Assembly (NCBI GenBank): GCA_023091665.1
Contig: JALJCQ010000022.1
Location: 806,001-870,000, forward strand
Direction: 5' to 3'
Source: Pythium myriotylum
Taxonomy: Eukaryota; Oomycota; Peronosporomycetes; Pythiales; Pythiaceae
DNA length: 64,000 nucleotides
The position numbers and the translations under genes were made by a program. Position 1 is the first letter of the stretch. Each line of letters opens with the position of its first letter. This document shows, piece after piece, positions 225 to 58,121 of the stretch. A model generated the notes under the pieces. That model searched no databases, was not told where the DNA came from, and worked only from the letters and a program-made list of their open reading frames with translations.

Positions 225-449
225 GAAGTGATCAGTCTGGCGGACGAGGTGGAGGTCCCTGAAACGGAAGTGAACAGTCTGGTTGGTGAGGATCCAGCCC
301 CGACGTCTAAGAACGTATAAGAACGTGTAAGAAGGGGAGAGCTCGATTGAAGCGTCAAGAAACTTCCACTGCGAACGAGGAAATCAAGTGAGTTGAACAG
401 TCTGGCGGAGACACCCTATCGAGGCCGGCGCGAAGTGATCAGGTCTGGC
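225..449 (+). repeat. 42-bp-spaced paired motif, leader of element A
   Basis: Four copies of GAAGTGAWCAGTCTGGC or close variants start at 225, 267, 390 and 432. The distances 225-267 and 390-432 are both exactly 42 bp. The copy at 390 reads GAGTTGAACAG in its first part, and the copy at 432 carries one extra G. The intervening sequences are not similar. All copies are in the sense orientation of the element. Confidence 0.9.
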
Positions 450-459
450 GGACGGAACA

Positions 460-3400
460 ATGGCAGCTGGCATGAAGCGCAAGCGTGGGACTGACAAGGG
501 CCAGGTAGAGGGCTCAGACGAAGGGCGGCAAGACACAATCGAGACGCCGCCTGGAATTGAAGGAGAAGCTACACGGCAAGGTACGCATCAAGAAACGCCA
601 CCGCCCTCGACTTCCGCTCGACACACGGCTCAAGATGAAGGAGATACTTCTGTCAACTCGTCAAGAAAGCTCGCTCGTGCCGGAAGCCAAGCTGAAGCCC
701 CTGCTCGTTCGGCCTCGAAGAAGAGTGCTGGCTCACACTGGCCGGAAGGGCAGCTCAAGACGTTACGCGTCCTGTACGAGCTGAAGGACCGCAACAAGTG
801 GACGTGGAACCGGTTCGCTGAGGAATTCAACAAGATCAACGAAGTTACCGGACACCCATTGCGTGATGCTGATGCCTGCCGAGCGCGCTGCCAAAGAGAT
901 CCAGAGTTGAGGAAGAGTACAGAGCCCAAGCTCGCCAAGTGGACGCCTGAGCAAGAAGCGTTTCTGACTGCGGAGAAGAAGGCGAAGACCTCGAACCGAG
1001 ACATATATGCGAAGTATCTTGATAAGGTTCAGGCTCACGGGTGGGCATCTCGAGAATACAAGACGGTGATGACCAAGCTTTCCAGCATCTCAGAGCGAGA
1101 TTCGAGTCGCAAGAGCAACCGTTCAAGCGACCAGGGGACGGCCACGGACCGACAAACGCTGACTATGGCGCGCCGAGTATGGCATCCCGACGAAGACGCC
1201 GTATTGATGAAGGCTCTACACGCGCATAAGGACGAGGGCGCAGCTATATGTCACGAAGCGATACAGAGCGAGTTCCTGGCCCTCGGAGAACGAGATGGAG
1301 TACCCATTGGTGACCGCACCATTGTGGCCATCAATAAACGACTGAACACCTTACGTGATGGGAAGCCCGAAGCGACGAAGCTGCCCAGGCGGTGGACGGA
1401 CAAGGACGATCAACAGACCCGTCAAGCTATGAAGCAAGAGAAGCGGAAGCGCGGACAAGCAATTAAAGAACTCTCGGCAGCGTTGGAAGTCTCCGAGTTT
1501 GCTGTGCGTCGTCGTTGGAAAGAGCTGAAAGTTATCGATAAGGAAGTCGGTGGTTCGACGGAAGAGAAGGAAGCCAGTCCAGGCCAAGGAATTCTCATCG
1601 AGCCGTTTGTGTGTGAGGCCAACCAAGGTGGTGCCACTCGGCCAGGGAAGACCGTTGTCCACTCGGGATGCACGATGCCAAGCGCCGTATTGGCTGAGAC
1701 GCTGCTGGCCCTGCGATCTGACAATGCGGAGGTCGAGAGCGTCGCCGAGAGTGGAGATGAGATCTTGTTCGAGGGCGTGAATGAAGAGTCAGATGATGAC
1801 GCACCAACGAATGACCCAGTCAGACCTGATGAAGAAGACGTCGACCTTGCCGTGGCACAGGCTCTTGGCGAGGTGACGGCCATCGTGGAATATTGCAGCC
1901 AGCAAGCTAGTGAAGAGTCGAAGCAGGACACGGACCAGGGGATGAGCGGCCAAGCAGAGAATCTGCCGACGACCTTAGAGCAAGGAGACGGTGTCAGAGC
2001 GACGGATGCGGGCGAGAGCCTTGAAGACAGCGCTACGGTGACCACAGGAACTACTAGAGAAACTCCAGCGCCTAGAGAGACTGAGACCCACGAACTGCAG
2101 GCTCCCGGAGGAAGCGTACGCGAAGGTGCCACGGACGAAACGCCTTCAATTCCAGTGTATGAAGGCGTGCCAGCAGATACAGCCGACGTTCCGATTGCTC
2201 AAGCTTCGTCCAAGGCAGACGAAGTTTCCGACCACGCACCCGAAGTGATCAGTCTGGCTACCCCATTAGTGGGCGGTGAAGACGAAGTGAACAGTCTGGA
2301 GGATTTGCCAGAGGCCACACAAGCTGGAGTGAACAGTCTGGCGGAGGTAGCGAAGGCAACTAACTTGGTCGGCCTTTTAGTAGACCCTCCATCTGAAGTG
2401 ATCAGTCTGGCCAAGGAACCAGTCGCCAGTCGAAGTGTAGTGAACAGTCTGGTCCCTTCCGTGGGGCACGCTCCCTCCAGCTTGGAAGACCATGCCGCTG
2501 AGAGCATCAAAGGCGGATCCCACGAGATCCGAGGACCTCAAGACCCACCACACGCTGCGCCGATGATAGAAGAGGACGAAGTGGTGTGGCGAAATGCACA
2601 CGATGGTGCACCACAATACATCACCGTCCGAATTGCTCCAGACCAATCAAGGAAAGTTCTCTCAGCCGACACATGTGATCGTTTGAGAGCAAGTGACCTC
2701 GCACCAGACTCCAAGTTGAGGATGTTCTACAAGGACAGTGAGCAGCGCGTGCAAGATATGATTGAAGGCGGCCTAGACAAAATGCGTCTTCCCGACGGTC
2801 CGGCACCCCCTGTCGACAAGTGCTTGCTGAGGGAACTAATGCTGGCCGGAACAATCCTCTCGCGTGGCGAAGAATCGCGCGCAATATTCTTGCGGGAGAT
2901 GTGGACAGACAAGTACGGAGAGTGCCGGGACAAAGACTGCTGCCTAGCGTACGATGTGAACCGCCCGCATTTCCAGTATGAAGGCGAGTGTAGACACTGG
3001 CGATATTTCAAGATGCGACGGGTCAACTTCGACTATTTCACGAGCGTGAGAGACTATCTGCTGGCGGGCGCGCTTGCGACGCATCTCGAGATGCTCTACG
3101 CCACTGAAGGCCCCGACTTGCCACCCATCAAGCGAGATGCGCAGTGTGTCCGGTTGAGGCTCTCAGGGGGATCGATGACTAATCAGATGTCAGGAGAATG
3201 GCCTGGCGGTGGAAGCGAAGGTGACGAACAAGGGAGCAATGGTGCAAGATCGGTGACCCATCTCCAGCCGTTGTTGTGCTCGATGACCACATTATACCTC
3301 TCTCTGGACATGACTATGGATCAGCAAGTCTGCGAAGCGCAGCTCTCGCCATGGGATTACGGTGCGGTGGTGGCAGGCGAGAGATACTTGCACGAACGTC

Positions 3401-5199
3401 AGGTACTGGGTCGCGGGGTGTTGATGAGATCTGGATCCCGGTGGTTTATAGTCACGAACGCGAGTATCACGTCAGCCCAACCAAGCAGACTCGATTTAAT
3501 GTGGGATCCGAGGACAAGTCTATTGAACTACGTGCAACGTTTCCTGGCGATAGACCAAGCGGCATCGCGACCTACGCCGCTCGTCACAGCGCTTGCCATG
3601 CGGGACATGCATCAGAAGGAACGCCCGCGACCTCAACAGACCCGAGCGAAGAGAGTGAGGATGTTGACGAAGTCGCTATTTCTGAGACCAAGCCAAATGA
3701 GAGTGGTCGAGGAATTTGTTACGAAGACTGGCATCATGCTAGTGCGCGGCCCGTTTGGCTGCGGCAAGACGACGACATTGACGCGCGCGATATCTGTCCA
3801 CCGTGAGGCGTACCCCAAGGAAGTGATTGCAGTCGTGTCTGAAACGAACGCCGCGATTGATGAAGACCTCCGACGGCTCCGGCAGAAGAACCTAGTGCCC
3901 GAAGATGAAATATTGAGGCTCGGAAAGTGTGATGCTCACATGCAAGAGTTTGCAGGGATCTACCTCGACGAACTCATGAAGAAAAGACGGGCGTTAATAG
4001 AACGGATATACCCTGACCGGCCCGACATGGTAGCATCCGAAATGAAGAAGTACGAAGACCATTTGCTAGCTCGAGCGAAGGTCCTTGTCGCCACATTAGC
4101 GACAATGGGGAGTGCGAAATATCAGCATCTAGCGAATCACGTGGTGATCATCGACGAAGGCGCGCAGGTTGCAGAAGCCGCGGTGATCCAAGCTCTTCGC
4201 GAAGATACGCACACGCTGCTACTAGCAGGGGACCCCAATCAGCTGCGGGGGTACAGCTCGCTGCCGACAAATTTCGCTGAGAGGTTCCCCGGCGATGAGA
4301 GACGGCACAAGCTCAATTGGTCTGTGTTCCACACGTTCGAGCATTGTTACGCGTCTTACGGCATGAAGTTCCCGGGGCTAACGACGGAGGACATTTTTCG
4401 GTGTGGACCAGATTTGGTGACACTATTGCAACCCTTTTACGACTACCCGCTGCGCTCCGCTATCAGCAACACTCCAGGATATCTAGTTGGGATGCTGCTA
4501 CCGCCTCTGCAGGATGACGCAAGTTGGTCTAGGGATGGAATCGAGAACGGACCGCCCCTGCCTCGAGGACCGTCTGCAATATGGCTCGACTCGGGCAACG
4601 AAGGTTTTCACCCTGACGGGCGACGGAAATCTGCGAGCGAGGAGAAGTTTGTGAATGTGATTGAACAAGCGCTGGTGATGGAACTGATCATGCGGATCAA
4701 GGCGCAACTCAAACTGCAATCCAAGATGACGCACAGAGTGTGGCGCAAGAGTATCCTAGTTATCTCCCCTTACGCGGAGCAGGTCAAGAGATTAAAGGAA
4801 GATGCTCTACAGTGGAAAAATCTCTACGAGAATTTCCTAGACGTAGAAGTGAAGACTGTGGACTCAAGCCAGGGGTGCGAAGCTGACATTACGATCACCT
4901 TGATGGTGCGTCACGTGAAAATGGGATTCTTGAAGAATAACCCCTCGCGATTGCTGGTGTCCCTGAGTCGTGCCAAGGAGTACATGTTCGTTCTCGCAGA
5001 TGACCAGACTCTCGCTCAAGACAGCACGTGGGCGAAATTCCGCCAACAAGCGATTGACATGAGGATCACGTACGGGAGGTCGAGATGGACGCCAGAGGAA
5101 GCCGGCGCTGTGTTGAAAGACAAGGACCACATGAGGAAGCTGGCCAGCGCTAACGACTCGAGAGTCATTGGCGACGCCCAAAACGCAGTGCTGCTGTAA
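460..5199 (+). CDS. Myb/SANT-repeat SF1 (Upf1-like) helicase of element A
   Basis: A 1579-residue intact ORF. Residues about 92-150, 160-210, 240-300 and 310-358 form four Trp-rich Myb/SANT-like repeats, suggesting DNA or chromatin binding. A long acidic linker follows (about 400-690) and contains five in-frame copies of the 42-bp-spaced motif, encoding EVISLA or VNSLA peptides. Residues about 820-848 hold a Cys/His cluster (CRD...CC...CRHW) that is conserved in helicase B. The C-terminal third is a superfamily 1 helicase: Walker A GPFGCGKT near 1097, motif II DEGAQ near 1232, motif III GDPNQLRG near 1257, motif V DSSQGCEAD near 1468 and motif VI SLSRAK near 1501. This motif set matches the Upf1/Senataxin type. 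The position just before the LTR marks it as an accessory retroelement gene rather than a host gene. An alternative start is the ATG at 472. Confidence 0.85.
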   Translation: MAAGMKRKRGTDKGQVEGSDEGRQDTIETPPGIEGEATRQGTHQETPPPSTSARHTAQDEGDTSVNSSRKLARAGSQAEAPARSASKKSAGSHWPEGQLKTLRVLYELKDRNKWTWNRFAEEFNKINEVTGHPLRDADACRARCQRDPELRKSTEPKLAKWTPEQEAFLTAEKKAKTSNRDIYAKYLDKVQAHGWASREYKTVMTKLSSISERDSSRKSNRSSDQGTATDRQTLTMARRVWHPDEDAVLMKALHAHKDEGAAICHEAIQSEFLALGERDGVPIGDRTIVAINKRLNTLRDGKPEATKLPRRWTDKDDQQTRQAMKQEKRKRGQAIKELSAALEVSEFAVRRRWKELKVIDKEVGGSTEEKEASPGQGILIEPFVCEANQGGATRPGKTVVHSGCTMPSAVLAETLLALRSDNAEVESVAESGDEILFEGVNEESDDDAPTNDPVRPDEEDVDLAVAQALGEVTAIVEYCSQQASEESKQDTDQGMSGQAENLPTTLEQGDGVRATDAGESLEDSATVTTGTTRETPAPRETETHELQAPGGSVREGATDETPSIPVYEGVPADTADVPIAQASSKADEVSDHAPEVISLATPLVGGEDEVNSLEDLPEATQAGVNSLAEVAKATNLVGLLVDPPSEVISLAKEPVASRSVVNSLVPSVGHAPSSLEDHAAESIKGGSHEIRGPQDPPHAAPMIEEDEVVWRNAHDGAPQYITVRIAPDQSRKVLSADTCDRLRASDLAPDSKLRMFYKDSEQRVQDMIEGGLDKMRLPDGPAPPVDKCLLRELMLAGTILSRGEESRAIFLREMWTDKYGECRDKDCCLAYDVNRPHFQYEGECRHWRYFKMRRVNFDYFTSVRDYLLAGALATHLEMLYATEGPDLPPIKRDAQCVRLRLSGGSMTNQMSGEWPGGGSEGDEQGSNGARSVTHLQPLLCSMTTLYLSLDMTMDQQVCEAQLSPWDYGAVVAGERYLHERQVLGRGVLMRSGSRWFIVTNASITSAQPSRLDLMWDPRTSLLNYVQRFLAIDQAASRPTPLVTALAMRDMHQKERPRPQQTRAKRVRMLTKSLFLRPSQMRVVEEFVTKTGIMLVRGPFGCGKTTTLTRAISVHREAYPKEVIAVVSETNAAIDEDLRRLRQKNLVPEDEILRLGKCDAHMQEFAGIYLDELMKKRRALIERIYPDRPDMVASEMKKYEDHLLARAKVLVATLATMGSAKYQHLANHVVIIDEGAQVAEAAVIQALREDTHTLLLAGDPNQLRGYSSLPTNFAERFPGDERRHKLNWSVFHTFEHCYASYGMKFPGLTTEDIFRCGPDLVTLLQPFYDYPLRSAISNTPGYLVGMLLPPLQDDASWSRDGIENGPPLPRGPSAIWLDSGNEGFHPDGRRKSASEEKFVNVIEQALVMELIMRIKAQLKLQSKMTHRVWRKSILVISPYAEQVKRLKEDALQWKNLYENFLDVEVKTVDSSQGCEADITITLMVRHVKMGFLKNNPSRLLVSLSRAKEYMFVLADDQTLAQDSTWAKFRQQAIDMRITYGRSRWTPEEAGAVLKDKDHMRKLASANDSRVIGDAQNAVLL
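2242..2452 (+). repeat. 42-bp-spaced motif cluster inside helicase A coding region
   Basis: Five copies of the family A motif start at 2242, 2284, 2326, 2395 and 2437. Three of the four gaps are exactly 42 bp; the fourth is 69 bp. Copies with GTGATC come first in a pair and copies with GTGAAC follow. All five are read in the same frame, giving V(I/N)SL peptides 14 residues apart. Confidence 0.92.
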
Positions 5200-5260
5200 A
5201 GACGGGTGATCCAGGTGTGCTCGCTCTTCTTCGCGGTGCTGGAGCTTCGCAGGGGACGGC

Positions 5261-6057
5261 TGTGGTATAGCGCCCCGATTCCGCGGGCATGAGTTTCTGC
5301 AAGCGCTAGGTGGCCGGTCAGGCGAAGGTGTCCACGACCAAGTCCCAAGGAAGTGATCAGTCTGGCGTACCCTTAGTACCCAAGCCAAAACGAAGTGAAC
5401 AGTCTGGCGCCCAAGTCAAGATTCCGTATTCCAGACTCGGCGGTACGAGTTATCGTATTTCTCTTTATTTAGAAACCTAACATAAAAAACAGTAGGAGTA
5501 GGAACCTTATATTTGACAGATTTCAGTAGGTAGGAACGGGTGCTTACCACCCAATAACCCACGGAAAGGGGGCGATTCTCCGCCGCTAATTGATTGGGAG
5601 TCAGTCCACAATTTTTCCTCCTTCTCGCAGAAGCCCCCTGATTCTCCCCTCAACAGTAGCCCGTCAGTATCTCGAGGAAGTTACTAAGAGTTTCGAAGTG
5701 ATCAGTCTGGTCGATCGGCCGCCTGTTTTGGGTACAGTCGCGATCCGAAGTGATCAGTCTGGCCGAGGGCCGGGTGGTTTTGCCGGCGCTTCCTGCCAAG
5801 TTCCCCGTAGGAGTTCTCCAGGAGCTCCATCGCCTTCAAGCCGTTCTTTCTCGCTGCCTCTAGACTTGTGAGGGTCTAGTTGTAGTGTCGTGTCAGAGTT
5901 TCGGGTCTCCGCTTCAAAGAAGTTGTGATATCCGGGTCTGAAGCGAGTGTTCGAAGCACGCAAGATCCACCCCTTTCCTGAGAATATTGTTGCCGTCGGT
6001 GACTCAAGAGCGAGCCTACGTACGCCAGGTGCCCGTTTTTGATTCTGCCACACGACA
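5261..6057 (+). repeat. LTR of family A (3' LTR of element A)
   Basis: A 797-bp block starting TGTGGTATAG and ending CCACACGACA. Its ends are defined by comparison with the solo copy at 57327-58121 (795 bp): similarity begins at TG and stops at CA in both. The copies differ by a few percent, including small indels. It contains four family A motifs (5350, 5392, 5695, 5747). A purine-rich AGGGGACGG just upstream is the likely plus-strand primer. A 93-codon ORF inside it (5590-5871) is present in both copies, but I treat it as non-coding. Confidence 0.9.
5350..5763 (+). repeat. Paired motifs in LTR A
   Basis: Motif copies start at 5350 and 5392 (42 bp apart) and at 5695 and 5747 (52 bp apart). 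The first copy is followed in frame by a stop codon within a few codons, so the motif here cannot be conserved for its peptide. Confidence 0.9.
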
Positions 6058-6735: not shown

Positions 6736-7120
6736 TGTGCTTTTCGTTGATATTCTGACACTGTGGGTTCCAGAGGAACCCGAGGCATCTCTGATGCCGG
6801 CTCTTGATAGCTGCACTTATTAAATCAATTTCCTTACAGAGCTGTATTATTTCAGATGCTGAATGCTTTTCTATTTTGGGGTACTCATATAAATCACTCA
6901 TTATTTCGGTATCTACCGGTTCATTGAGCTGGACATCATCAACATAACCAGTATCATCGGTATCGGATAGATACGTAATATCCATGCTTTTTGTGTCTAT
7001 ATAGATAAATATATTTTGTATCTCCAGTTGTTCAATCACCCAAATGGGTACTGTCAAAAACCCAACGTTGGGTTGCACCGTTTGATTGGCTGAAATACGA
7101 ATAGAGAGAACGCCCCTCAC
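6728..7120 (-). CDS. Unknown AT-rich ORF, possibly a C-terminal fragment
   Basis: An open frame of 130 codons on the minus strand whose tail overlaps the end of the 6343-6735 ORF by 8 bp. The upstream end coincides with the CRN promoter region, and the first in-frame ATG is only at about 6985. It may be the 3' remnant of a longer viral gene cut by arrival of the CRN gene. It is rich in Ile, Asp and Glu and has no motif I recognise. Confidence 0.35.
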   Translation of the reverse strand: MRGVLSIRISANQTVQPNVGFLTVPIWVIEQLEIQNIFIYIDTKSMDITYLSDTDDTGYVDDVQLNEPVDTEIMSDLYEYPKIEKHSASEIIQLCKEIDLISAAIKSRHQRCLGFLWNPQCQNINEKHTN

Positions 7121-7124
7121 TCGC
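7082..7124 (+). promoter_or_regulatory. Candidate CRN promoter (inverted CCAAT and Inr-like)
   Basis: TTGATTGGC at about 7082-7090 contains an inverted CCAAT box. CCTCACTCG at about 7115-7123 matches the oomycete initiator pattern YTCAYTYY except for its last base. The Inr-like element lies about 20 bp before the CRN start codon, a normal distance for Phytophthora genes. Confidence 0.4.
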
Positions 7125-7141
7125 AGAAAGCAATTGAAAAC

Positions 7142-8923
7142 ATGGTGGAGCTGTTCTGCGTGGTGGTCGGAGAGAAGGGAAGCGCGTTCCCAGTGGATAT
7201 CGACACGAGTCAGTCTGTGGGGAAGCTGAAGAAGGCCATCAAGAAGGAGAAGGAGAACAAGATCAAGTGTGATGCAGATGAGCTCGAGCTGTTCCTCGCC
7301 AAGAAGGGCGACGACACGTGGCTCGAATCAAGCACAGATGATGTGAAGAAGCTCAAGAAAGGGGAAAAGACTGCTCTAATCGAAGCGCTGACACACGAAG
7401 ACAATGAACTGCAGGGAGAGTCTGGCCTTCAGAAGGTGTTGAAGGATATGCCTGAGCCGTCCACCGATCAAATCCACGTGTTGGTGGTGGTTCCCAAGCA
7501 GGAAGCCGCCCAAGCTGTTTCACAAGATGGTGTTCTCGATCGCTGCAGTGATCCATTCTTCTCACAATTCCCCACGGTCGATGAAGTCAACAGTTGGCTC
7601 GAGTTTCCGTCGTTGCTGCCGCTAACGAAACGTCAAAAGCTCTACATTCGATCTTCGTACAAGTCGATCGCTGCTCAAGTTCTGTCAAATGCGGACCCAA
7701 GCATGGTCAAGTATGCAGTCATCACTGGCACGCCTGGCATTGGAAAATCAGTGTTCGTCTACTATGTGATGTGGAGGTTGGTCAAGGATAAGAAACGGGT
7801 GTTGTTTCTCACTGCAGCACCACCAATCTACTTCGATGGCAGGTCGATGTTGATCTGCAATCAACTGCCTTTTGCTGGAAATCGCCATTTCTGGTCGGCC
7901 GATTTGTGGTGCCTCGTTGATTCAGTCGACCCAACTATGATTCCTGGGTTCCCCATTCTTCATTGCTCGACTCTGCTCGTGAGTACACCGCGACGAGACT
8001 GCATTGGTGAATTCAAGAAGCTCGTACCGACTCCAGATGTGTTCTACATGCCACTGTGGACCAAGGAAGAGCTGGCGACAATTGCTTCACTGTATCCAAC
8101 TGCGGCAGATGTGTGGGATAATCGATTTGAGTGCTTGGGTGGTGTACCTCGTCTGGTGATGCAAGACATTCAATCCGACCCAGAAGCTTTGCTGATTTCC
8201 GCATGCAGCAGTTGTTCTCTCGATGATTGCATTATGCTGGTGTCCATCTACTCGGAGATCAATTCGAAGACCAAGATCATTCAGGCGTTGATTCACATCC
8301 ACAGTCAAGAACCATATCGAGAGTACAAAGTTGCGTACGCATCAGAACTGGCGATGCAAGTGATCGCTCGAACAAAGTGGCGATCCGATCGCACGAAGAT
8401 GCAAAGCCTTTTGGGGTCGTGCGATGGAAACCCGCTCGCACAATCGCTGTGCGGATACATCTTCGAGCCTCATGCGATGGATCTGTTGGAGCAAGGTGGG
8501 ACTTTCGTGTGTCGGAGGCTGTTGTCTGGAGCTGAAATGCGAAAGCGCGACACAGCCAAACGCAAACGAGGCACCCCAGATAGTGAAGACGAAGAGACCA
8601 TCGACATTCCACGTTCCTTGCAACCACGACAAACAGTGGATCGTGTGAAAGTCGGTCAACTTGCAAATCAGCTGTACGTGCCACGGACATCGAACTATAC
8701 TGCCATTGACGCGTGGATGCCGCACGTCGGTGGTTTTCAAATGACGGTGGGAAGGAAGCACGAGATCAGGGCCGGTGCGGCAGATGATCTGGGGAAACTG
8801 GGTGCCAACGGCAATCGGCTCTACTTCTTGCTTCCACCGCTATACTACCAGTCGTTCACGAAGAAGACACCACAAACCATCGAGCAGTTTGCGATACTGA
8901 TACCTTATCCGGAAGTGGTTTAA
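7142..8923 (+). CDS. Crinkler (CRN) family effector with P-loop NTPase and nuclease-like C-terminus
   Basis: An intact intronless 593-residue ORF. The ubiquitin-like header begins MVELFCVVVGEKGSAFPVDI. LFLAK lies at residues 50-54 and HVLVVVP at 112-118, the two hallmark motifs of oomycete Crinklers. A P-loop GTPGIGKS lies at 196-203, followed by a STAND-like NTPase region. The C-terminal 90 residues contain AIDAW and FQMTVGRKHEI, resembling the restriction-endonuclease-like core (D...QxT) described for many CRN proteins. No signal peptide is visible, which is common in this family. Established knowledge: CRNs are translocated into host plant cells and act mostly in the nucleus, causing necrosis or suppressing defence. 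The gene is GC-richer than the virus-like ORFs on both sides. It appears full length and undamaged. Confidence 0.92.
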   Translation: MVELFCVVVGEKGSAFPVDIDTSQSVGKLKKAIKKEKENKIKCDADELELFLAKKGDDTWLESSTDDVKKLKKGEKTALIEALTHEDNELQGESGLQKVLKDMPEPSTDQIHVLVVVPKQEAAQAVSQDGVLDRCSDPFFSQFPTVDEVNSWLEFPSLLPLTKRQKLYIRSSYKSIAAQVLSNADPSMVKYAVITGTPGIGKSVFVYYVMWRLVKDKKRVLFLTAAPPIYFDGRSMLICNQLPFAGNRHFWSADLWCLVDSVDPTMIPGFPILHCSTLLVSTPRRDCIGEFKKLVPTPDVFYMPLWTKEELATIASLYPTAADVWDNRFECLGGVPRLVMQDIQSDPEALLISACSSCSLDDCIMLVSIYSEINSKTKIIQALIHIHSQEPYREYKVAYASELAMQVIARTKWRSDRTKMQSLLGSCDGNPLAQSLCGYIFEPHAMDLLEQGGTFVCRRLLSGAEMRKRDTAKRKRGTPDSEDEETIDIPRSLQPRQTVDRVKVGQLANQLYVPRTSNYTAIDAWMPHVGGFQMTVGRKHEIRAGAADDLGKLGANGNRLYFLLPPLYYQSFTKKTPQTIEQFAILIPYPEVV

Positions 8924-11734: not shown

Positions 11735-12564
11735 ATGTCGCGGCGAGTGTGAATGTGCATGTGAAGAAGAAGATCCGGCGCAAACAAGCGAAGAGAATCG
11801 AGAAAGAAGATGCGCCTTGTGTATTCGAAGAGAGTGATGTCGAAGAAATGAAGAAACAGGAAGAAACAGTGATTGAGGATGTGGCGTCCGAGAAGGAGCC
11901 ACGTGTGCATGAAGAGTCGAAGATGTTGTTGCATTTAAATCAAGAACGGGAAAAGGTGAAGAAAGAAGGAGAACGTTCGGTCCGTTGGGAGGTCATGCAT
12001 GTCCAACTGACGGAGGGCAAACGGAGAGGTTGGTGGAAGGATCACGATCCTCTTCAGGACGAAGCAGTGCAAGTGTTCGTTCATGGTGCAGTCGAAGATC
12101 TCGGGCTCCCATTAATGCTCGACACGGGTGCGAACATCAGTTTGCTACACACTAACTTGGCACGTAAGTTGGGATTGAGCGTGAAGATGTTCGAAGACCC
12201 GAGTGACTTCTACGGAGTATCCGAGCATCCACTGCCTACACACGGGAAGGCGCTGACAAAGATCAAGCTTGGAGGATTCGTTGTCTATGAGATGGAAATG
12301 TGGATTGCAGACTTTGAAGCACACTCTCTAGTCATCATCGGGACCGATTTTATGGTGCGTGGAGGTCTTGTCATCGATCTGGGCCAGCGATTATGTGTTG
12401 TACCAGAGGAGGACCCACTCAGGCTGCTGAATTACGAGGAACTGAAGACGCAAGACTACCGAGAGGTGTATGAAACGGTCAAGGAGGCTGAGGGTGTCTC
12501 ATTGAATTGGAGCAACGACATGGCTGTAGCTTGTATTGGAGACACGCCCCCCGCGGTGTTTTGA
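11693..12564 (+). CDS. Retropepsin (protease) region of element B
   Basis: This frame is open from 11515 and is entered by a -1 shift at 11686-11692. After about 120 charged residues comes the aspartic protease: MLDTGANISLLHTNLA carries the DTG catalytic triad, and LVIIGTDFM is the conserved C-terminal Gly-containing strand. Retropepsins act as dimers and process the polyprotein. The ORF ends with TGA at 12562-12564 in a TTT TGA C context, with pol continuing in the +1 frame. Confidence 0.8.
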
Positions 12565-15500
12565 CGGGTTATCGCCGGACCGCATCGACCAGTCGAAGCT
12601 TGCTCGGGAAGTATACATTCATGAGGGTGTCGAGATGTCTGTGGAAGATATGAAGGACCAACTCGCACTTATTCCCGAGTTTGATGACGGGCCGCAAGAA
12701 GAAGTGGATATGAGCGAGGCCGATATCGGCGAGGACGAGACGACCGACAAACAGAGGGCGCAGACAAGAGCGATCTTGGAGAAGCGCAAGGGTGGCTTTA
12801 TTAGTTCGGGTAACGCATTACCACCGCCGGCCAAAGGCGTTGTTTGTGATGTCGACGTCGGAGACGCTCAGCCCATCGCGCAGAAGGCAAGACGTGTGCC
12901 TCCCCATTTGTTGGGTCGACTCTATGAGCTGCTGCGAGGACTGCTTCGAGCTGGATTGATCAGGTACTCGGACTCTCCATGGGCGTCAGCCATCGTTATT
13001 GTGCTCAAGAAGAATGGCAAAGATATTCGGCTTTGTATCGATTATCGGATGGTCAACAGCTTGACGAAGCTCATGGTGTATGCGATGCCACTCATTGACG
13101 ACCTATTGGACAACTTTGAAGCGGTTATGTGGTTTTGTTCCTTGGACAACGCGAGTGGTTTCTGGGCAGTGACACTGACAACGCGAGCTAGGCTAGTGAC
13201 GGCATTTATTTGCCCACTTGGTCACTTCGAATGGACACGAATGCCTCAAGGGTTGAAGAACGCGCCGCAAATATATCAGCGTATGATTGACAATGCGCTG
13301 TGGAGTTGCGTAAGGCGGCTACATGATCAAGGACAACCGTGTGAACCTATTGGTTGGTCAGAGGAAGAGCTTGCGGCTATAGAGGAACAGTTCGAAGCGG
13401 TGAGGATCGATACTGATCTCGCACTCAAAGACGACGTTTTTCGACGCGGTAGAGGTGAACAGAGCGATGCGCGGCCTATCCTGAATCGACGGTCGTATAT
13501 TGATGATATCACGTTCGGAGCAACCACATGGGACGAGATGAACACGATGCTCGAGTGCCTGCTAGAAGCGTTCGAGTACTGGGGTGTCACGATCAGCCTG
13601 AGGATAAGTGCCTTTGGAAAGAAGTCGGTGGAATTTTTGAGTCACGAGATTACAAGAGATGGCATCAAGTGTGCCCCGAGGAACTTGCAGTCAATTATGG
13701 ATAGGCCGTTCCCTTCGACACAAAAGGGTCTGCAGCGTTTCATTGGCAGTCTGATCTATTACCATCGATTTATTGAGAATTTCGCCACGTACGCCGCTGC
13801 GCTCTATGAAATAACTGACCTCAAATTGCGCGACGGAACCCAGCTGGAGCATGCGAAGATATCATTTGAAGCTCTGAAGTCGAAGTTGTGCGAAGCGCCA
13901 CTCTTGCGACACATTGTCCGCCGTCGTGAACTGGTGGTCGTGCTCTATGTGAATCGTTGGGCGTTTGGCTCAGCCGTCTGTCAAGAACATGATGGTATTC
14001 TTCATCCAGTCCGTTTCGTAAGTAAGGTGTTCAAGGATGCCGAGACGAGATACACCTGGGCAGAGCAAGAAGTGTTGGCATTGCTGAAGACGCTGCATTG
14101 TGCGAGTCATTACCTTCTGGGACAGCCTGTCACGGTCTATGCGCGATACTCCACAATGAAGTGGGTATTTACGTCGAAAAGTCTAACCGGGCGCGTAATT
14201 CAGTGGGCCGCGATGCTATCCCCATGGACGCTCAAGATTATTCGGAGTGACGAAACGCCTGCCGGTCTGCTTGCAGTTTTAGCCGCGTCAATTGTGCTGC
14301 CGGAGAAGATGGACGAAGTGCTGGAGGATATCGCACCTATGAAAACAGTCGGTGATGTGCCTGTCATCCGGCCAATACCTGAATCAAGACGGTGGAGCGA
14401 GGGGTACGTACTGACCTTCGACGGCGCGGTGCGGGTGAAGGAGCCGAAGGCTGGGTCATTTGGAATGATACTGTGGTCGCTGCCCGAGTGGAAGATCGTC
14501 GCAGCGGAATTCGATGTCAAGCCTGACCTCACAGTGAACGACAGCGAGTATCACGGCCTCCTCGGGGCCCTCGCACTTGCGTGCGACCGCGGCGTGAAGA
14601 AGGTGAATGTGTGTGGAGACTCTCGGCTCGTGATTGGACAAGTCAACGGAGATTTGCGATGCAATCAGCCATCACTGCAGGTGTGGCTGAACAGAGTCAG
14701 GACGCTTCTGGAAAGATTTGACAGTGTCAGCCTGGTACATGTCGCTCGGAAGTACAACCAAGCCGCAGATTTGTTGACGCGGAAGGCGATGGCAGCATGT
14801 GCGCGAGGAGTCGTCGACGATCCGGAACAGCTTCACGATTTGGCGCAGCTCAACACGCTCCCAGAACTGCTGTACCGCACGAGCGATGGTCCCGAGGTGG
14901 ATGGTGAAGGTGGCGGCCCCGGAGATGCGATCTGCGACCAGACGACAGAGGGCGAGGTCCCAGTTAGCACTCTGACTGAGAACAACGACCAAGGAGTGGC
15001 CAGAGTTAACACTCTGGCAGAGGATGACCCGGCTTTACCCAGGGAACTGGCCCCTGACTCAAGAAACTCAGGTGTCGGCGGGACAACTGTTTCGAAATAC
15101 CATGTTTACGCCACAAGGAAGAAGAAGAAACCAGTTCGGAAGAAGACCAAGCCGAGTGGAACGACGGAAGTCGAAGGTGACGCCGACGAAGGAGCTCAGG
15201 CAAAAGCGTGGAGTCCATTACATGTGACAGAGGAGATGCTCACGGCTGCTCAAGTCGAGAGGTTCCGGAGGATTGCACGTGCTCAGCGCGATGATGACTG
15301 GTGTCGCCAAGTGATTGCTTATCTGGAAGGAAACTTGGAGGAATTTGCATCAGCGACGGCGCTAAAGAAAGTAGCCAGGGCCGCTGTGCTTTTCGTCTTG
15401 GATTCCGTGAACGTGCTCTACTATTGCCCTAGAGGTCGTGACGCCGAGGAGGCTACCATGCGACTGGTGGTTCCTGTTGTATTGCAAAAGGATATACTAT

Positions 15501-16933: not shown

Positions 16934-18019
16934 GCGTGACCGCAGCGAGTGTGCTAAAGACAGGACGAAGAGACAAGAGTTGAGGTTGTTGAGGAGGAGA
17001 TGTGAGAAGCGAGAAGTAAGAGAATGAAGGAGAGGAGAAGGCTGAGTCCACGAACAAGGAAGGAAAACGTAGTTGTCTACGACGGTGAAGCTCAAGGCCT
17101 CGTTGTTTATGAAGGCGGTCATCGCAAACATGTGACCCGACGCTGGGGACCCGAGTTGGTTGCAGCGATCGAGGTGCGGGCCCGAGTTGGCTGCACGATT
17201 AGTCACGAGCGGCGTGACGCTCTCAATCACGTGTCACGACCGCGGCCCCTGCAGGTATCCGGTAGGCCGGCGCAGTGGAGCGGCTGAGTGAAGCGAAGGG
17301 CGAGGTGGTGCGCAGTGGGTGCTTCAGGGCGACGGTGATCTGATCAATCAGCGGAAGACGAAGTGAGACGGTGCGTGCACGTGTCAAGCGACAGCAGGAA
17401 CGAGTTCGGCGTCTGATCAACAATGATCTCGAAGAATGCACGTCAATTGGCCACCCCCGGAGCGGTACCTCAGTGAGAGTGTTGGTGCGAGGTATACAAG
17501 GAGCTTTTATCCGGACAACAGCGGATGACCAGCGGTGAAAATCGAACAACACAGAAGGCAAAGAACGTCGAAGAACACCAAAACAAGGTGGGTCGAGCCT
17601 GAGAACTTCAATCGGGTGACGGCGACGCGTCGACAGCCAGCGTTCGAGAGAGTCAGTGTGAGGAAGGTGATGGTCAGTCTCGGACCGAACGAGACAAAAC
17701 GAAGTGTGAAGATGGTGTATGGTACATGAAATCGGGAGGCAAACCCATCAGATAAGTGACATGCGTGATACGACCGAATTTGACAGCTCCAACGGGAAGT
17801 TAGAACTCTGGAGACCAACGGGGTGAGCCAACGGTGAGATGACAGAGAAGCGGGCGTTGCCAGAACGAAGAACGGCACGGTTGACCCTCACAGCGCGCGC
17901 CGCAGCACTCCGAACGACGATGTTGAGAGCAAGGAGTAGAGACGCGCGGCGAAGGCAGGCGGAGAACCTCGAGCTCGAGGACTTGAGTCATAGGGATTCG
18001 AATCAAGACGAACAGAGGA
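16934..18019 (+). other. Spacer between pol and helicase of element B
   Basis: About 1.1 kb without a convincing gene. Short open frames are basic and repetitive and show no domain. The stretch is purine-rich in places and probably forms the leader of the helicase mRNA or a decayed N-terminal coding part. The four Myb-like repeats of helicase A are not recognisable here. Confidence 0.5.
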
Positions 18020-18129
18020 ATGACAATGAAGGAGAAGTCACTACGGGATATCGTATCGATGAAAACGTCAGAAACCGGGACGGTGGTAAAGGGCGAGCGA
18101 GACACCTGCGAACGTCGTCCGAGAGCGAG

Positions 18130-18198
18130 GAGGCCAACCCGAGACCACGCAAACGCCGGGGTGTTTCGGTGGCGTTTGCGTGGTCTCGGGTTGGCCTC
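18130..18198 (+). repeat. 28-bp perfect hairpin in helicase B
   Basis: Arms at 18130-18157 and 18171-18198 are perfect reverse complements over 28 bp with a 13-nt loop. It lies near the 5' end of the helicase ORF and is read through in frame. No counterpart is seen in helicase A. Confidence 0.95.
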
Positions 18199-18687
18199 GG
18201 AGAAAGGGCGGACTGTCGCTCAGGCTATCCTTGGTGTGGCCCAACAATTGAAGATCTCGCCCCAGTTCACGCAACGGCGATGGGACATGTTGCTAGCTAA
18301 GCGTGAAAAAGATCGACGAGAATCAGGCGGGACGAATATGGGGGATTCCGAAGGTGAAGAAGAGCGCAATATCAGTCGCCGACGCAGCAGAAGTACTGGG
18401 TCGCAAGCTATTGAGAGCGAACCAGGCGAGCCACGTCACGACGAAGAGCCCGAACGTCTGCCTTCGGTTGCAGGCACGCCTGCTGCAGATACGGCGGCGT
18501 CCCCAAGTTACGAAGTCGATCTGGCCGAGGAAGAAGAACGAACGTTTACCGCCGCTTCCATGATTCCTGGTGGTCTGACCGTGGGGAGAGATACTGGAGG
18601 ACTCCCTCGAGCGCCGGCCGCAGACTCGACGCGTTACGCCGAGTTGGCCAGTCAACTCTTGTCATTGAGAGATATCAGTCAAAGCGA

Positions 18688-18744
18688 AGTTAACACTCTG
18701 ACTGATGATGACCTCACTAAAGATGACGGAGGTAACACTGTGGA
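18688..18744 (+). repeat. 42-bp-spaced paired motif in helicase B
   Basis: AGTTAACACTCTGAC at 18688 and the variant AGGTAACACTGTGGA at 18730 start 42 bp apart, in the acidic linker. This is the same relative location as the cluster in helicase A. Confidence 0.85.
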
Positions 18745-21700: not shown

Positions 21701-22201
21701 AGAAGGGGACCCCGCGAGAAGAAGCATGTCTTCGTTATTACGCCTTATAACGCTCAGGTGCGCGAACTACGCTACCAGATTCGACGATCTCAAGGCTGGC
21801 TCGAAGGATATCTCAGAGTAGAAGTGGAGACGACTGATTCCAGCCAAGGACGCGAAGCCGACATTGTTATAGCCTCGATGGTGCGAACCTCCAGTCTTGG
21901 CTTCATGCGTGACTATCCCGCGCGGACGTTGGTATCGTTGAGTCGCTGTCGCGACTATCTGTTTATCCTAGCGAGTTGGAGAGCTTATCGACAGGACCCA
22001 AATTGGCAGCGGCTTCGCGAAAGAGCCGAAGTGTTGAAGATCGCCTATCAGCGAGTGGAATGGGAGACTCAAGCCGCTGAAGCCGCGATGGATGACAATT
22101 GGACCTTGAAGCTCATCGGTGATGTGTCTAATGCTCGTCAATATGCGAACGTCGGCAGCTCGGCGCTTGGACTTGGAGCTGAGAGCGCTGCGGAGGGGTG
22201 A

Positions 22202-49452: not shown

Positions 49453-50160
49453 TCAAACGGTCACAAACTCGGTGGTATCGTCACCGTAGAATAACCACAG
49501 CAAAGCCTCGTAATTATCCTGACCATGGGAGTTCGGATCGTACGCAATTGGTTCGATTTCACCGTTTGCTGACTCGATCGAATCTTCAGGAGATTCGATG
49601 TGCACCTTTTGATCACTCGGAACCGTTGGCGACGACGCTGAGCGAGGGCGCGACCCACGTGAGTGGTAGACATTGTGGGTAATCTTGATGTGTCGCCGAA
49701 GGTTACCCGGTGTGCTGAACACCTTGCCACACGATAGGATCGTGCAGCGATGACCAGTGTATCCGTCAAAGTGGGACTGCATGTGACGCTCGAGCTTTGC
49801 CTCGCTCAAAAACTCGCACGCGCACCCGTCGACCAGGCACGGGAGCGGCTTGACGAGCCATGGGTGAACGACTCGCTTATGACGGCCTAGGTTGCCCGAG
49901 GTCGCGAAGCCTCGACCGCACGTGCGAACAGGGCAGACGAACGGGCGGTCGCCCGTGTGCGAGTTGACGTGGTCTTTGAGCGAGTATCGGCGTTTGAAGA
50001 CCTGATCACATCCCGGAAATGGGCACGCATGCCGCCGTTCTGACGTCGGAACATCGCCGTCAACCGAAGCGTGTGACGAGCAATCGGACATTCCGGACGG
50101 ACTGGCAGGCGGGACTGGCATCTGGAGTGGCGCGCTCTCGGGACTTGTGCTCCCTTTCAT
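49453..50160 (-). CDS. C2H2 zinc-finger protein Z4 (intact)
   Basis: 235 residues, ATG at 50160 (MKGSTSPESAPLQMPVP). Four C2H2 fingers: HACPFPGC...HVNSH, FVCPVRTC...HKRVVH, LPCLVDGC...HMQSH and HRCTILSC...HIKITH. Fingers 1 and 2 are joined by TGDRPF, a Krueppel-type linker. The tail carries a basic patch and ends LLWLFYGDDTTEFVTV, shared in form with Z5 (LEWLFSDDDMVEFVSV), suggesting a short interaction or activation motif. Intronless. A near-consensus oomycete core promoter lies 32 bp upstream. It is probably a nuclear transcription factor of a lineage-specific, duplicated family. Of the series, only this copy and Z5 appear undamaged. Confidence 0.85.
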   Translation of the reverse strand: MKGSTSPESAPLQMPVPPASPSGMSDCSSHASVDGDVPTSERRHACPFPGCDQVFKRRYSLKDHVNSHTGDRPFVCPVRTCGRGFATSGNLGRHKRVVHPWLVKPLPCLVDGCACEFLSEAKLERHMQSHFDGYTGHRCTILSCGKVFSTPGNLRRHIKITHNVYHSRGSRPRSASSPTVPSDQKVHIESPEDSIESANGEIEPIAYDPNSHGQDNYEALLWLFYGDDTTEFVTV

Positions 50161-50191
50161 TGTCTTCCGTTGTGTTGGTGTTGTTTAGAGC

Positions 50192-52706: not shown

Positions 52707-53432
52707 TTAAACACTCACGAACTCAACCATATCGTCATCACTGAACAACCATTCCAACGTTGCACGCATGTCCCTATCACAAGGAAGAGGCTCGATGGCG
52801 ATTGGGTCGATGTTCTGACACGATGAGTTATAGTAGTCAGGACGACCCTTCGAGACCTTTGGAGGATGATCATCGCAGATTACGGAAGATGAAGGAGATC
52901 GACGCCGACACCCACCCGGGCGACTTGCGTTGTGAGCAATCTTGATATGGCGACGTAGGTTGCCGGGCGTACTGAAAACCTTCCCACATGAGAGAATTGT
53001 ACAGCGAAACTCGTCCGAATTGTCAAAGTGGGTTTTCATGTGGCGCTCAAGCTTGGCCTCGCTCGAGAATTCACAGATGCACCCGTCGATCAAACATTTG
53101 AGGGGTATCCCAAGCCATGGATGTGTCCGCTTGTGGCGAGCGAGGTTGCCAGAGGTAGTGAATCTTCGAGCACACGAACGAACAGGACACACGAACGGAC
53201 GCTGACCGGTGTGTGCGTTCACGTGGTCCTTCAGGGCGTTCGACCGCTTGAATCGGAGCGTGCATCCTGGGAAATAACAGGCATACGGTCGGACTGGGTC
53301 TCTCGCCTCACTGTCGGGGCCGCAGGTGATTGATTCTGCGTTCGAGTTCAGCAAATGCGCAAAACCCATGTTGTCATGCAACGTGGATGCGATGTTGTTT
53401 GCGCTGTATGCGAGGAGCTCGAGTGGGAGCAT
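52707..53432 (-). CDS. C2H2 zinc-finger protein Z5
   Basis: The frame is open from 54017, but the conserved start shared with Z1 is the Met at 53432 (MLPLELLAYSANN), giving 241 residues, close to the length of Z4. Upstream codons include poly-Pro/His-Thr from a poly-G/TG microsatellite and are unlikely to be coding. Four fingers: YACYFPGC...HVNAH, FVCPVRSC...HKRTH, LKCLIDGC...HMKTH and FRCTILSC...HIKIAH. The tail has a basic patch and ends LEWLFSDDDMVEFVSV. No frame lesions. It is the complete sister of the LINE-truncated Z1. Confidence 0.83.
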   Translation of the reverse strand: MLPLELLAYSANNIASTLHDNMGFAHLLNSNAESITCGPDSEARDPVRPYACYFPGCTLRFKRSNALKDHVNAHTGQRPFVCPVRSCARRFTTSGNLARHKRTHPWLGIPLKCLIDGCICEFSSEAKLERHMKTHFDNSDEFRCTILSCGKVFSTPGNLRRHIKIAHNASRPGGCRRRSPSSSVICDDHPPKVSKGRPDYYNSSCQNIDPIAIEPLPCDRDMRATLEWLFSDDDMVEFVSV

Positions 53433-55478
53433 TGCTGGATTGGTGCTTGCGTTGCTGAGAGTTGATTCCGCAATGGCGGGTCTGAGAAGTTTATCACGGA
53501 AAATCCGATGTTTTCTATGTGTCGAAGGGGGTGGTGTGTGTGTGTGGGGGGGGGGGGGGGGGGGGGGGAGGGGGGTGAGCTTAGCTCTTGTTGGACGTCC
53601 ACGATTGTTTCGGGTGCTCGTCTTGATGCTGCTGCGTATCCCAATCGACAGGCTGCATTGAATCTCACGCCACCAATGAATGCTTCCGTGGCTGAACCGA
53701 CAGAGAGGCTGGCTTGCCGTGCCTATCCGAACTATCCACATTTCAGTACGGAGTGTCTGATGGCATTTCTGTTTCCCATCGTGGACAGGTTCAGGAGTCA
53801 AGAGTAGCGCCATGATCCCAGCAGTCCCCACTTTCACCTTGTGTCCAGCAACAGCTGCTACGTCAGGAACGTTCTCCATTTCAGAAGAAATGGTCGGTAC
53901 AGAAACGCTTCTTCGTATGGAGAATTGCGTAGCCTCACTTGCACGATGCTGTGCTTGTAGCAAAAGGATGTCAGTGGAAGAACTGAAACCAGCCGCGAAT
54001 AGCCCGAGCAAGAACATGATATTTCTTAGTTGTCACCAGCATATGCGTATGCTATTGCCAACATGACGCCATCCTTTCTAGTCAGCCGGTCGAGGTGCGA
54101 CGTAATGTGCAAAAATTGCAGGCTTGTCTTCCACTACAGAGGATATGAGATCCTTGAAGACTCAGACGTCTATTACCGTTGATATCACTCCGAGCCCAAG
54201 TCGAGTGGTTTGACAGCGCCCAATGATCACAGCTATTCGCAGTGAACATCGAAAGATGGTCTCAAGAAACAGAAGGGGGGGAGGTTTGTAGGTGCTGTGG
54301 GGAATCCCTGTTTGTCCGTTGGGTTCGGGTCGGGGATTTCTTCCCAAACAGGTGGTCAGTCTCCCTGTTGGCCACGTGACATCCTTTGGGGAAGTGACCA
54401 GTCGAGCAATCCATTGTTGACGTTTGGGGCTGACGGCCACCCAGAGAAAACGTCCCCCATCTGCCTTGGACAGGTGATGGGTGCCGAGGACACTGAACAC
54501 TTGAACTTCTTTGTGGCTCAGAGTGATCTTCAACTCGACGACAGTATCTGAAGTCGGCGCAATTTCCCACTAAGGTAATCAAGAGTCAACTCGAACGTGG
54601 ACATTGCAGCGTCGACACACTATTAAAGGAAAAAGTCCAGTTTACTGCAGGCGTGGCGCAGACGCGATCCCAGTCCTGGTGCGTGCGAACGGAAAGTGAG
54701 CGTTGAGTATGGAGGGAGGTCTACTCTATGATCGTAGCTTAGGCGCTTCGGCGGTCCTAGAATATCAGAGTGAAAAGGCTGATTCTTGACTTGGCTCGAA
54801 CATACTGAACAGTACTCAGGTAACGCATACGGATGTAATAATCACTTCAATCTATGCTTGCCTTCCGGGTTAGAATGTTAGACCACGGGGTTGAGATAAC
54901 GGGAGATAGTACGGGATCGACTCGCACTAGAATGCCGAAACTCATGTCGTAGACCAAGAATGACACGCGACCGGACATTCTAGACCAGCGGGAATTGAAT
55001 ATGGATATATCCCTGGGCAACCACACAAATGCATGTGCAGCTGCTAGCGGGGAACGAGCTCGTATTGGAAACCGGTAAGAACCGAGAGCACGTGTCGTGC
55101 CTTACGTTTCCATCTATGTGAACGTGCTTGCAATGGTAAAGCCCCCCCCCCCCCCCCCCCCCACACACACACACAAGTCACCCTACGATCAGATGAAGGA
55201 CTCCCTTTCAAATTCCTCAGCGATTTCTTTCACAATAGGAATGCTCTGAAAGAGTACATACAGCCCAACAAAGACTTGATTCAATCTGATAAATCTGTTA
55301 AGTAGCGCTCGGCACCCGCTACGCGGGCGATTTATGAAATTCCGCCAGGGCTGTGGGCTGGTAGTGTTATGGTTTTAAACCGCCAAAGCTGATTTGTTAA
55401 AACACAGTGAAGCGGCAAATGGTCACCCCTCTCAGATGTGAAACGACATCAATGCCCACACCAAGACTTCACACCAAC
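53433..55478. other. Upstream region of Z5, duplicated at Z1, with homopolymers
   Basis: No gene recognised. 53433-54550 aligns in patches with 26411-27560. It contains a poly-G run (53546-53568) next to (TG)n and a poly-C run (55142-55162) followed by (AC)n. The poly-G tract is absent from the Z1 copy. Confidence 0.6.
55474..55478. repeat. Target site duplication of element C (left copy)
   Basis: CCAAC, repeated at 61659-61663 immediately after the 3' LTR. Confidence 0.85.
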
Positions 55479-56777: not shown

Positions 56778-56780
56778 GCA
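56746..56780 (+). promoter_or_regulatory. 11-bp hairpin spanning the Gag stop codon of element C
   Basis: Arms TGCTCAACGGA (56746-56756) and TCCGTTGAGCA (56770-56780), 13-nt loop; the Gag stop is inside the right arm. The position at the Gag/protease junction suggests a recoding role, but no clear slippery sequence was seen. Confidence 0.5.
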
Positions 56781-57326
56781 ATCCATTCAAGTATCAGAAG
56801 AATCTCCAACTCAGAAATCAGAAGAATGCGCGGTCGAGTTTGACATGGAGGCCGCAGAAACCGGTGCTCGATCGGTCGTTGGGTCCAGTGTGTGCTCCGT
56901 GGAGATTGATGTCGATGTGGCCGAGGGCCAATCCGAGTTGTTGTTGTTTGTGGACGCGACTATTCAGGGTAAATCAGTGCGAATGTTGGTGGATTCCGGT
57001 GCGTCGCACACGATCATCAAATCTGGGCTGTTAAAGCCACCCGAGCTGAAGAAGCACACTATGGTGACTGCACGTGATTTTCAAGGTCAGCCACGGTCTC
57101 GGCAATGTCTGGAGTACTCGGTGCCTATCGGTGTCCAAGGCCAAGTCTCGTTGGTACCAGTCATCGAGAGGCCATTGCAACAATCGTTTGATGGGATATT
57201 GGGTCAATCATGGCTGCAGGTCGCGAATCCTCACATTGATTGGGCCACCCGCAAGTTAGTTATGGCGCCCACGACAAGTGTGGAGCCATCCCGCACTCCC
57301 TCGGACTCAACACCAACACGGCACCT
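56758..57326 (+). CDS. Protease part of element C pol, cut by solo LTR
   Basis: This frame is open from 56518 and is useful from about the Gag stop onward. Retropepsin: LLFVDATIQG and MLVDSGASHTII with the catalytic DSG, and a C-terminal FDGILGQSWL. The coding sequence runs into the LTR at 57327. RT continues after 58121 in frame +1 relative to this one. The extra DNA (795 bp plus a 4-bp duplication, 799 = 1 mod 3) accounts exactly for that frame change, so protease and RT formed one ORF before the insertion. Confidence 0.85.
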
Positions 57327-58121
57327 TGTGGTATAGCGCCCCGACTCCGCGGGCATGAGTTTCTGCAAGCGCTAGGTGATCAGTCAGGCGAAGGTGTCCA
57401 CGACCAAGTCCCAAGGAAGTGATTAGTCTGGCGTACCCTTAGTACCCAAGTCAAGACGAAGTGAACAGTCTGGCGCCCAAGTCAAGATTCCGTATTCCAG
57501 ACTCGGCGGTACAAGGTATCGTATTTCTCTTTATTCAGAAGCCTCACATAAAAACAGTAGGAGTAGGAGCCTTACATTTGACAGATTTCAGTAGGTAGGA
57601 ATGGTGCTTGCCACCCAATAACCCACGGAAAGGGGGCGATTCTCCGCCGCTAATTGATTGGGAGTCAGTCCACAATTTTTCCTCCTTCTCGCAGAAGCCC
57701 CCTGATTCTCCCCTCAACAGTAGCCCGTCAGTATCTCGAGGAAGTTACTAAGAGTTTCGAAGTGATCAGTCTGGTCGATCGACCGCCTATTTTGGGTACT
57801 GTCGCGATCCGAAGTGATCAGTCTGGCCGAGGGCCGGGTGGTTTTGCCTGCGCTTCCTGCCAAGTTCCCCGTAGGAGTTCTCCAGGAGCTCCATCGCCTT
57901 CAAGCCGTTCTTTCTCGCTGCCTCTAGACTTGTGAGGGTCTAGTTGTAGTGTCGTGTCAGAGTTTCGGGTCTCCGCTTCAAAGAAGTTGTGATATCCGGG
58001 TCTGAAGCGAGTGTTCGAAGCACGCAAGATCCACCCCTTTCCTGAGAATATTGTTGCCGTCGGTGACTCAAGAGCGAGCCTACGTACGCCAGGTGCCCGT
58101 TTTTGATTCTGCCACACGACA
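57327..58121 (+). repeat. Solo LTR of family A nested in element C
   Basis: 795 bp, TGTGGTATAG...CCACACGACA, flanked by ACCT on both sides (57323-57326 and 58122-58125). It is homologous along its whole length to 5261-6057. No internal element sequence is present, so it is the product of LTR-LTR recombination. Confidence 0.93.
57416..57827 (+). repeat. Paired motifs in the solo LTR
   Basis: Family A motifs start at 57416 and 57458 (42 bp apart; the first reads GTGATTAG, a point change) and at 57759 and 57811 (52 bp apart), the same spacings as in LTR A. Confidence 0.9.

Follow-up and report, generated by a model that had tools for sequence, protein, structure and literature searches.

Regularly spaced pairs of short DNA words in helicase-bearing Ty3/Gypsy retrotransposons of Pythium myriotylum: candidate sites for an element-encoded DNA-binding protein

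Background

What purpose might be served by short sequence words that recur at fixed distances from each other along a retrotransposon, in its coding regions as well as in its long terminal repeats (LTRs)? This question is raised by a stretch of 64,000 nucleotides from the oomycete Pythium myriotylum (positions 806,001 to 870,000 of contig JALJCQ010000022.1, hereafter the window, or C22:806001-870000 in an assembly of 58.7 Mb and 55 contigs), in which two families of LTR retrotransposons, here called A and B, carry such paired words. An initial annotation of the window had described the pairs as 42 bp apart, except for an LTR pair at 52 bp, with unconserved spacers and in sense orientation throughout, and had proposed either a phased protein-binding site (of an enhancer, an insulator or an integration complex) or a bipartite RNA signal. 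Here we extend the observation to the whole genome and to a third family (C), and we consider, with modest confidence, that the pairs are probably bound by a DNA-binding helicase which the elements themselves encode and which would mark or activate its own element.

Results and discussion

Site words and their spacing

Direct reading of the 19 starts listed previously found the motif or a near variant at every one of them, the site sequence being GAAGTGAWCAGTCTGG in family A and AGTTARCACTCTGRC in family B, close variants included. Their common core, AGTKAWCASTCTG, has 429 exact matches in the genome (315 forward, 114 reverse), against 8 (5 forward, 3 reverse) for the reversed pattern used as a control, and it forms 196 exact pairs with starts 28-58 nt apart (145+51), against 0 in the control; the paired motifs are thus real. 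The family B word taken by itself has 11+5 matches, compared with 0+1. Among the 100 pairs listed of the 196, which go back to some ten different positions within a single element family, 63 are spaced by 42, 24 by 52, 6 by 39 and 4 by 41, and one each by 32, 51 and 53. Forty-two is, however, the commonest spacing rather than the universal one, since 52 and 69 (the former in LTR pairs) occur in the window itself and 39, 40, 41, 52 and 78 in family A beyond it. Pairs of the A core at 59-89 number 29+13 in the genome, and the listed ones reach across either a third site or the gap of 69 in the helicase gene; a search for degenerate sites hidden in the gaps of 69, 78 and 102 (the last from family C) found none better than 6/14 mismatches.

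A de novo scan for paired words, which took the best word per stretch, gave 10, with 7 at 39-52, and 7 in family A, 3, all at 42, in family B, and 7 (L031) and 2 (L032) in family C, compared with 4, 1, 2, 1, 1 and 2 in six control stretches, where the 4 represent one local repeat. Simple word counting singled out families A and C, and did not single out family B or two further helicase loci, D and E, described below.

The carrier elements and the position of their sites

The family A copy of the window extends from the adjoining stretch L017 into window positions 1-6057. It comprises open reading frames (ORFs) for gag (L017:550-2646), protease (PR; L017:2622-3926) and reverse transcriptase (RT), RNase H, integrase and chromodomain (L017:3850-8334), followed on the forward strand by a helicase ORF of 1586 aa (439-5199), with a predicted helix-turn-helix (HTH)-like array, a linker holding five sites and a UPF1/SEN1-related superfamily 1 (SF1) helicase, and by the 3' LTR (5261-6057, forward), which shows a blastn self match of 97.2% to 57327-58121. 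Domain matches in the order gag, PR, RT, RNase H, integrase zinc-binding and chromodomain (the rve integrase core falls slightly under the cutoff in families A and B alike), together with LTR ends of the type TG...CA, support an assignment of the carriers to the Ty3/Gypsy chromodomain LTR retrotransposons.

Along this copy, which lies in two pieces, 26 family A sites are arranged in ten clusters. These are the 5' LTR, with spacings of 42 (its first site lying beyond the 5' piece) and 52; the protease ORF (78, 42, 39); the RNase H-integrase linker (41, 40); the region 3' of pol (42 and 52); the leader (42); the helicase linker (42, 42, 69, 42); and finally the pairs of the 3' LTR. The window part contains, all on the forward strand, the leader pair upstream of the helicase ORF (225-283; 42 bp), which is present in other copies too, the triplet (2242-2342; 42, 42) and the pair (2395-2453; 42) of the helicase linker, with 69 bp between the sites at 2326 and 2395, and two LTR pairs, one of 42 bp (5350-5408) and one of 52 bp (5695-5763, starts 5697/5749). 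The pair at 390-449 (forward), listed at first on a par with the others, does exist but is weaker: its site at 390 departs from the motif by 2 mismatches, and the site at 432 aligns best with a 1-nt insertion in 4/4 copies checked, the window included, one of the four carrying 4 further substitutions. A solo family A LTR (57327-58121, forward) with TG...CA ends and a 4-bp duplication (ACCT) is inserted within a helicase-less Gypsy element and carries both the 42 pair (57416/57458) and the 52 pair (57761/57813; core starts), and the LTR pairs are therefore part of the LTR. Within the clusters of the C22 copy, 42-bp pairs are asymmetric, usually with ATC in the upstream site (AGTGATC) and AAC in the last one (AGTGAAC); in 52-bp pairs both sites read ATC.

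Matches to the family A helicase recur along C22, starting at 651187, 672628, 763558, 784996 and 806439 on the forward and at 686602, 707499 and 728924 on the reverse strand; these copies are 99% identical, and several follow each other at intervals of about 21.4 kb, as if the element had been carried along in a segmental or tandem amplification.

In family B, gag, RT, RNase H, integrase zinc-binding and chromodomain were matched and PR was not found. Its pol ORF (12530-16933, forward; RT, RNase H, integrase, chromodomain) holds a pair spaced by 42 (14962-15018) in the same RNase H-integrase linker that carries the pol triplet of family A. The helicase gene (17987-22201, forward) is split into two ORF pieces (17987-20323 and 20324-22201), is shorter in its N-terminal region than a copy on C3 by about 0.75 kb (gap at about 18169-18193), and has a pair of 42 in its linker (18688-18744), the second site with 2 mismatches. 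A third pair of 42 lies in the LTR (22689-22745). All family B pairs are on the sense strand. A further stretch of 39 bp, separate from the paired sites, is shared at 90% between the family A LTR and the family B LTR region (5894-5932, 22872-22910 and 57958-57996).

Constraint on nucleic acid rather than peptide

Pairs of similar words could simply be passive, functionless remnants of ancient local duplications, and the fate of site columns in independent copies bears on this directly. In four family A copies that were left out of defining the 26 sites, 8/364 site columns are variable, compared with 108/646 in spacers and 389/2833 in flanks, i.e. motif columns are about six to eight times less variable than their surroundings. 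Restricted to non-CpG columns the figures are 3/350 against 330/2725, and 0/5000 shifted masks were as low. This result refers to family A, as the LTR copies of family B are too similar for such a comparison. Spacers, for their part, are mostly unrelated: their mean ungapped identity is 0.31, against 0.26 for random 25-mers (21 comparisons), and only 2/66 gapped comparisons reach p<=0.01. One of these two sets the 42 pair of the LTR against the helicase pair at 2242 (blastn 83% over 60 bp, of which the motifs make up much), and some pairs may accordingly be old duplicates; the earlier description of the spacers as unconserved is accurate apart from such cases. Descent of all copies from one duplicated segment, spacer included, which the initial annotation had named as the outcome contrary to a phased site, is thereby ruled out for the majority of pairs, though perhaps not for one or two, and we regard functionless duplication, which is contradicted in family A by the low column variation, as very improbable.

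A repeated peptide, for instance a protease cleavage or docking motif recurring every 14 residues, would also conserve the words. Indeed, 14/16 coding sites of families A and B are read in one frame, as EV[IN]SL (A) or V[SN]TL (B) and variants, and 42 and 39 are divisible by 3; this agreement is largely explained by the stops that other frames of the words often hold. Two of the three sites in the family A pol triplet (spacings 41 and 40) are read in another frame, the triplet giving RVDQSG / QLISL / SSEQSG (PSEQSG), i.e. two frames within one ORF, in two copies. Open frames across the LTR sites do not exceed 113 codons, and the LTR sites spaced by 52 are in different frames of such a stretch. 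The 12-mer of family C is read as DSD, as TVI or, on the opposite strand, as RSLS. We therefore rejected the peptide reading on account of the pol triplet, the LTR copies and family C, and grant it hardly any probability. Because a single pol ORF reads the same word in two frames, because LTRs contain it too, and given the low variation of its columns, the evidence supports a constraint that acts on the nucleic acid, as the initial annotation had concluded. A constraint of this kind suggests that the sites benefit the element.

A third family and the orientation of the pairs

With a piece of the family B helicase as query, 65 matches were obtained in the genome, many in family A copies and others at further loci, of which four beyond A and B were retrieved and examined. 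Two of the four (C26, C30) represent one helicase-bearing family, C, whose word CGATCACTGTCA has 21 sites (<=2 mismatches) in 9.5 kb, compared with a mean of 0.53 in mononucleotide shuffles. In L031 four of its pairs have a spacing of 51 and others of 52 and 61, further neighbours lie at 48, 80 and 102, and exact pairs in the range 33-63 number 31 in the genome (16 at 51 and 15 at 52; control 0). On C39, family C pairs at 228263 and 237305 lie no more than about 250 bp beyond two helicase matches (227295-228017 and 235790-237059). Sites within the 1469-aa helicase ORF of this family read DSD (6) or TVI (2), and four exact single sites in its pol ORF read RSLS, TVI, DSD and DSD. These pol sites (L033:6600, 7033, 7496, 7949) follow each other in near-regular steps of 433, 463 and 453 bp. 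Compared by eye, the A word (TGAWCAGTCTGGC), the B word (TTARCACTCTGRC) and the C word (YGATCACTGTCAYC) seem to be related.

In family C, pairs occur in both orientations within one element. The uniform sense orientation described initially is thus a property of families A and B: on both strands of seven loci, with <=3 mismatches allowed, 90/90 family A sites are sense-strand, and a genome-wide search for inverted pairs of the A core, in the convergent arrangement only (the divergent one was not searched), gave 0. This sense bias, and the fact that 42 is twice 21 nt, would suit a cis-acting RNA signal composed of two motifs and serving packaging, export, stability or small-RNA targeting. Spacings of 39, 40, 41, 51, 52 and 61 are nevertheless out of a 21-nt register, and the family C pairs, since they run both ways, disfavour an RNA signal as well as a peptide; the bipartite RNA signal of the initial annotation now appears improbable.

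A double-stranded DNA site was the other proposal, and the spacings of 51-52 and 61 in family C and of 40-42 and 52 in family A favour it, whichever of the enhancer, insulator or integration roles is assumed. When neighbouring distances <=110 are counted once per position (27 distances: 15 A, 3 B, 9 C), 14 fall at 39-42, 7 at 51-52 and 1 at 61, with 48, 69, 78, 80 and 102 outside such steps of about 10 bp. These steps fit an arrangement of both partners on one face of the DNA. The formal phasing test on distinct spacing values is modest (p ~0.025), and we claim only steps of about 10 bp because the best-fitting helical period is 9.5-9.9 instead of the expected 10.5.

The helicase and its putative DNA-binding array

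Families A, B and C each have a UPF1/SEN1-related helicase gene, the N-terminal region of which looks like a helix-turn-helix array, as judged from a structure model in A, a marginal profile in B, and by eye in C, where the model is too poor for a fold search. The family A model has four helical modules at about aa 100-365 (block pLDDT 74-95 in modules 1, 2 and 4, and 53-75 in module 3), and their structural neighbours are largely DNA-binding domains, while the fold search for family A returned no significant match and the array profile found nothing below E 0.22 among solved structures. Any likeness to three-helix Myb or trihelix DNA-binding domains is tentative. In family B, Myb_DNA-bind_6 scores E 0.0028 and 18.2 bits, below the cutoff of 22.9; the Myb sequence profile had no match in family A or C. 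Relatives elsewhere comprise P0001 (995 aa) and a weak P0002 among 7985 candidates scored. A search of viral contigs gave no match to the family A pair pattern, and no relative of P0001 was confirmed. None of the titles and abstract openings examined mentions an oomycete Gypsy family with a helicase, or paired DNA motifs in such a family; where PMC3522703 speaks of a helicase, the passages are about a Dicer-like one and about silencing.

A candidate self-recognition system and its main rival

We propose that the motifs are double-stranded DNA recognition sites of a Ty3/Gypsy chromodomain lineage with an extra gene. The product of this gene, a UPF1/SEN1-related SF1 helicase preceded by what looks like a tandem series of Myb/SANT-like helix-turn-helix modules, would bind sites of 12-17 bp. 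The partners of a pair would face the same side of the DNA at a distance of roughly 4, 5 or 6 helical turns (40-42, 51-52 and 61 bp), a geometry that would fix the spacing and leave the spacer sequence free. From its sites across LTRs and coding regions the protein could coat or mark the chromatin of the element, which would thereby remain transcribed in the face of host silencing (anti-silencing or transactivation); the helicase would be brought in as the effector. Seen directly are the sites, their spacings, the family-specific words, the constraint on nucleotides in family A and the company of a helicase gene in A, B and C. That a protein binds the sites, that the element encodes it and what it does we infer, the role by analogy with VANC and foamy virus Tas.

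The main rival is a host protein, e.g. a C2H2 zinc-finger or Myb factor, that binds the sites as an enhancer or insulator, in the way of Su(Hw) on Drosophila gypsy; the element would then draw on host machinery, and the helicase gene would have nothing to do with the sites. Long non-palindromic sites do suit zinc-finger arrays, C2H2 finger ORFs are present in the window, and the insulator of Drosophila gypsy is described as a cluster of 12 Su(Hw) sites located in the 5' UTR (PMC2374998). By contrast, the sites studied here are dispersed along the element instead of being gathered in one place, the 26 sites of the C22 copy forming ten clusters where a single 5' UTR array would be expected of the Su(Hw) type, and the words of A and C are clearly different, B being a variant, which fits better with co-divergence of the words and an element-encoded binder. 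A host factor thus seems unlikely to us, though less so than an RNA signal. The element-encoded binder is preferred because of the constraint in family A, the family-specific words, the presence of sites in both LTRs and genes, and the co-occurrence with a helicase gene in A, B and C.

In the two remaining helicase loci, D (C9) and E (C13), neither word counting nor the de novo scan found a dispersed paired word. Locus D is broken; locus E, which has one local tandem array, is fairly open, and this slightly lowers our confidence in such a binder and raises that in a host factor and an RNA signal.

Tentatively, then, this LTR retrotransposon lineage may write its own 'address' as phased site pairs laid over coding and non-coding DNA, in a word that co-diverges with a DNA-binding helicase and serves self-recognition or anti-silencing. 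Element-encoded proteins that recognise their own element are already known from DNA transposons and foamy viruses. If the proposal is true, the same trick would have arisen in an LTR retrotransposon by means of another kind of protein, which joins a DNA-binding array to a helicase, and through sites overlaid on genes, and it would offer insight into the resistance of transposons to silencing in such a genome. The family-specific words and fixed spacings make the supposed binding code directly testable in vitro.

Comparison with known systems

VANDAL elements, the carriers of VANC, are a family of DNA transposons; Tas, the second system considered here, binds at promoters and is not known to have a helicase. 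The available passages on VANC and VANDAL in Arabidopsis (PMC5735166, PMC10398659) describe a mobile element densely filled with short words that are particular to its family, different words in related families, one orientation of the words (as in A and B here) and an element-encoded binder, which in our case is a proposal. In those passages, however, the words lie mainly in non-coding tandem repeats and no fixed spacing is given, whereas the words reported here form spaced pairs, occur also in PR, pol and helicase ORFs, and have mostly unrelated spacers. Furthermore, the carrier is here an LTR retrotransposon, the candidate binder forms one protein with an SF1 helicase, and anti-silencing is suggested by analogy.

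Foamy virus Tas, according to the passages of PMC4929722, is likewise a sequence-specific DNA binder encoded by a retroelement, near its 3' end, and acts on the LTR and an internal promoter. Family A sites lie in the LTR and ahead of the helicase ORF, where an internal promoter would be hypothetical; unlike in Tas, 26 sites are spread along one family A copy. The gypsy insulator resembles our elements in having repeated protein sites (putative here) in a Ty3/Gypsy element, but its 12 sites cluster in 340 bp of 5' UTR, are bound by a host zinc-finger protein and do not extend across coding regions, as far as the passages of PMC2374998 go. Finally, TRAS long interspersed elements (LINEs) of insects also carry an accessory SF1 helicase, but this helicase is virus-derived, the elements are non-LTR, and the passages of PMC6338049 mention neither a DNA-binding array nor cognate sites.

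Other features of the window

The ORF at 7094-8923 (forward) begins with the N-terminal domain of Crinkler effectors (Pfam E 8e-27), in keeping with an oomycete source. A repeated family of genes, or gene fragments, with C2H2 zinc fingers lies near the retroelements at 49453-50184 and 52707-54032 (reverse strand), and similar C2H2-like ORFs were recognised by eye at 26027-26578 and 29407-29970. The region 29814-34793 gave a weak phage-integrase match (E 3e-4, below cutoff) and has split direct repeats, 29861-30043 being equal to 34495-34677 and 34396-34494 to 34695-34793; it may be a DIRS/Ngaro-like element.

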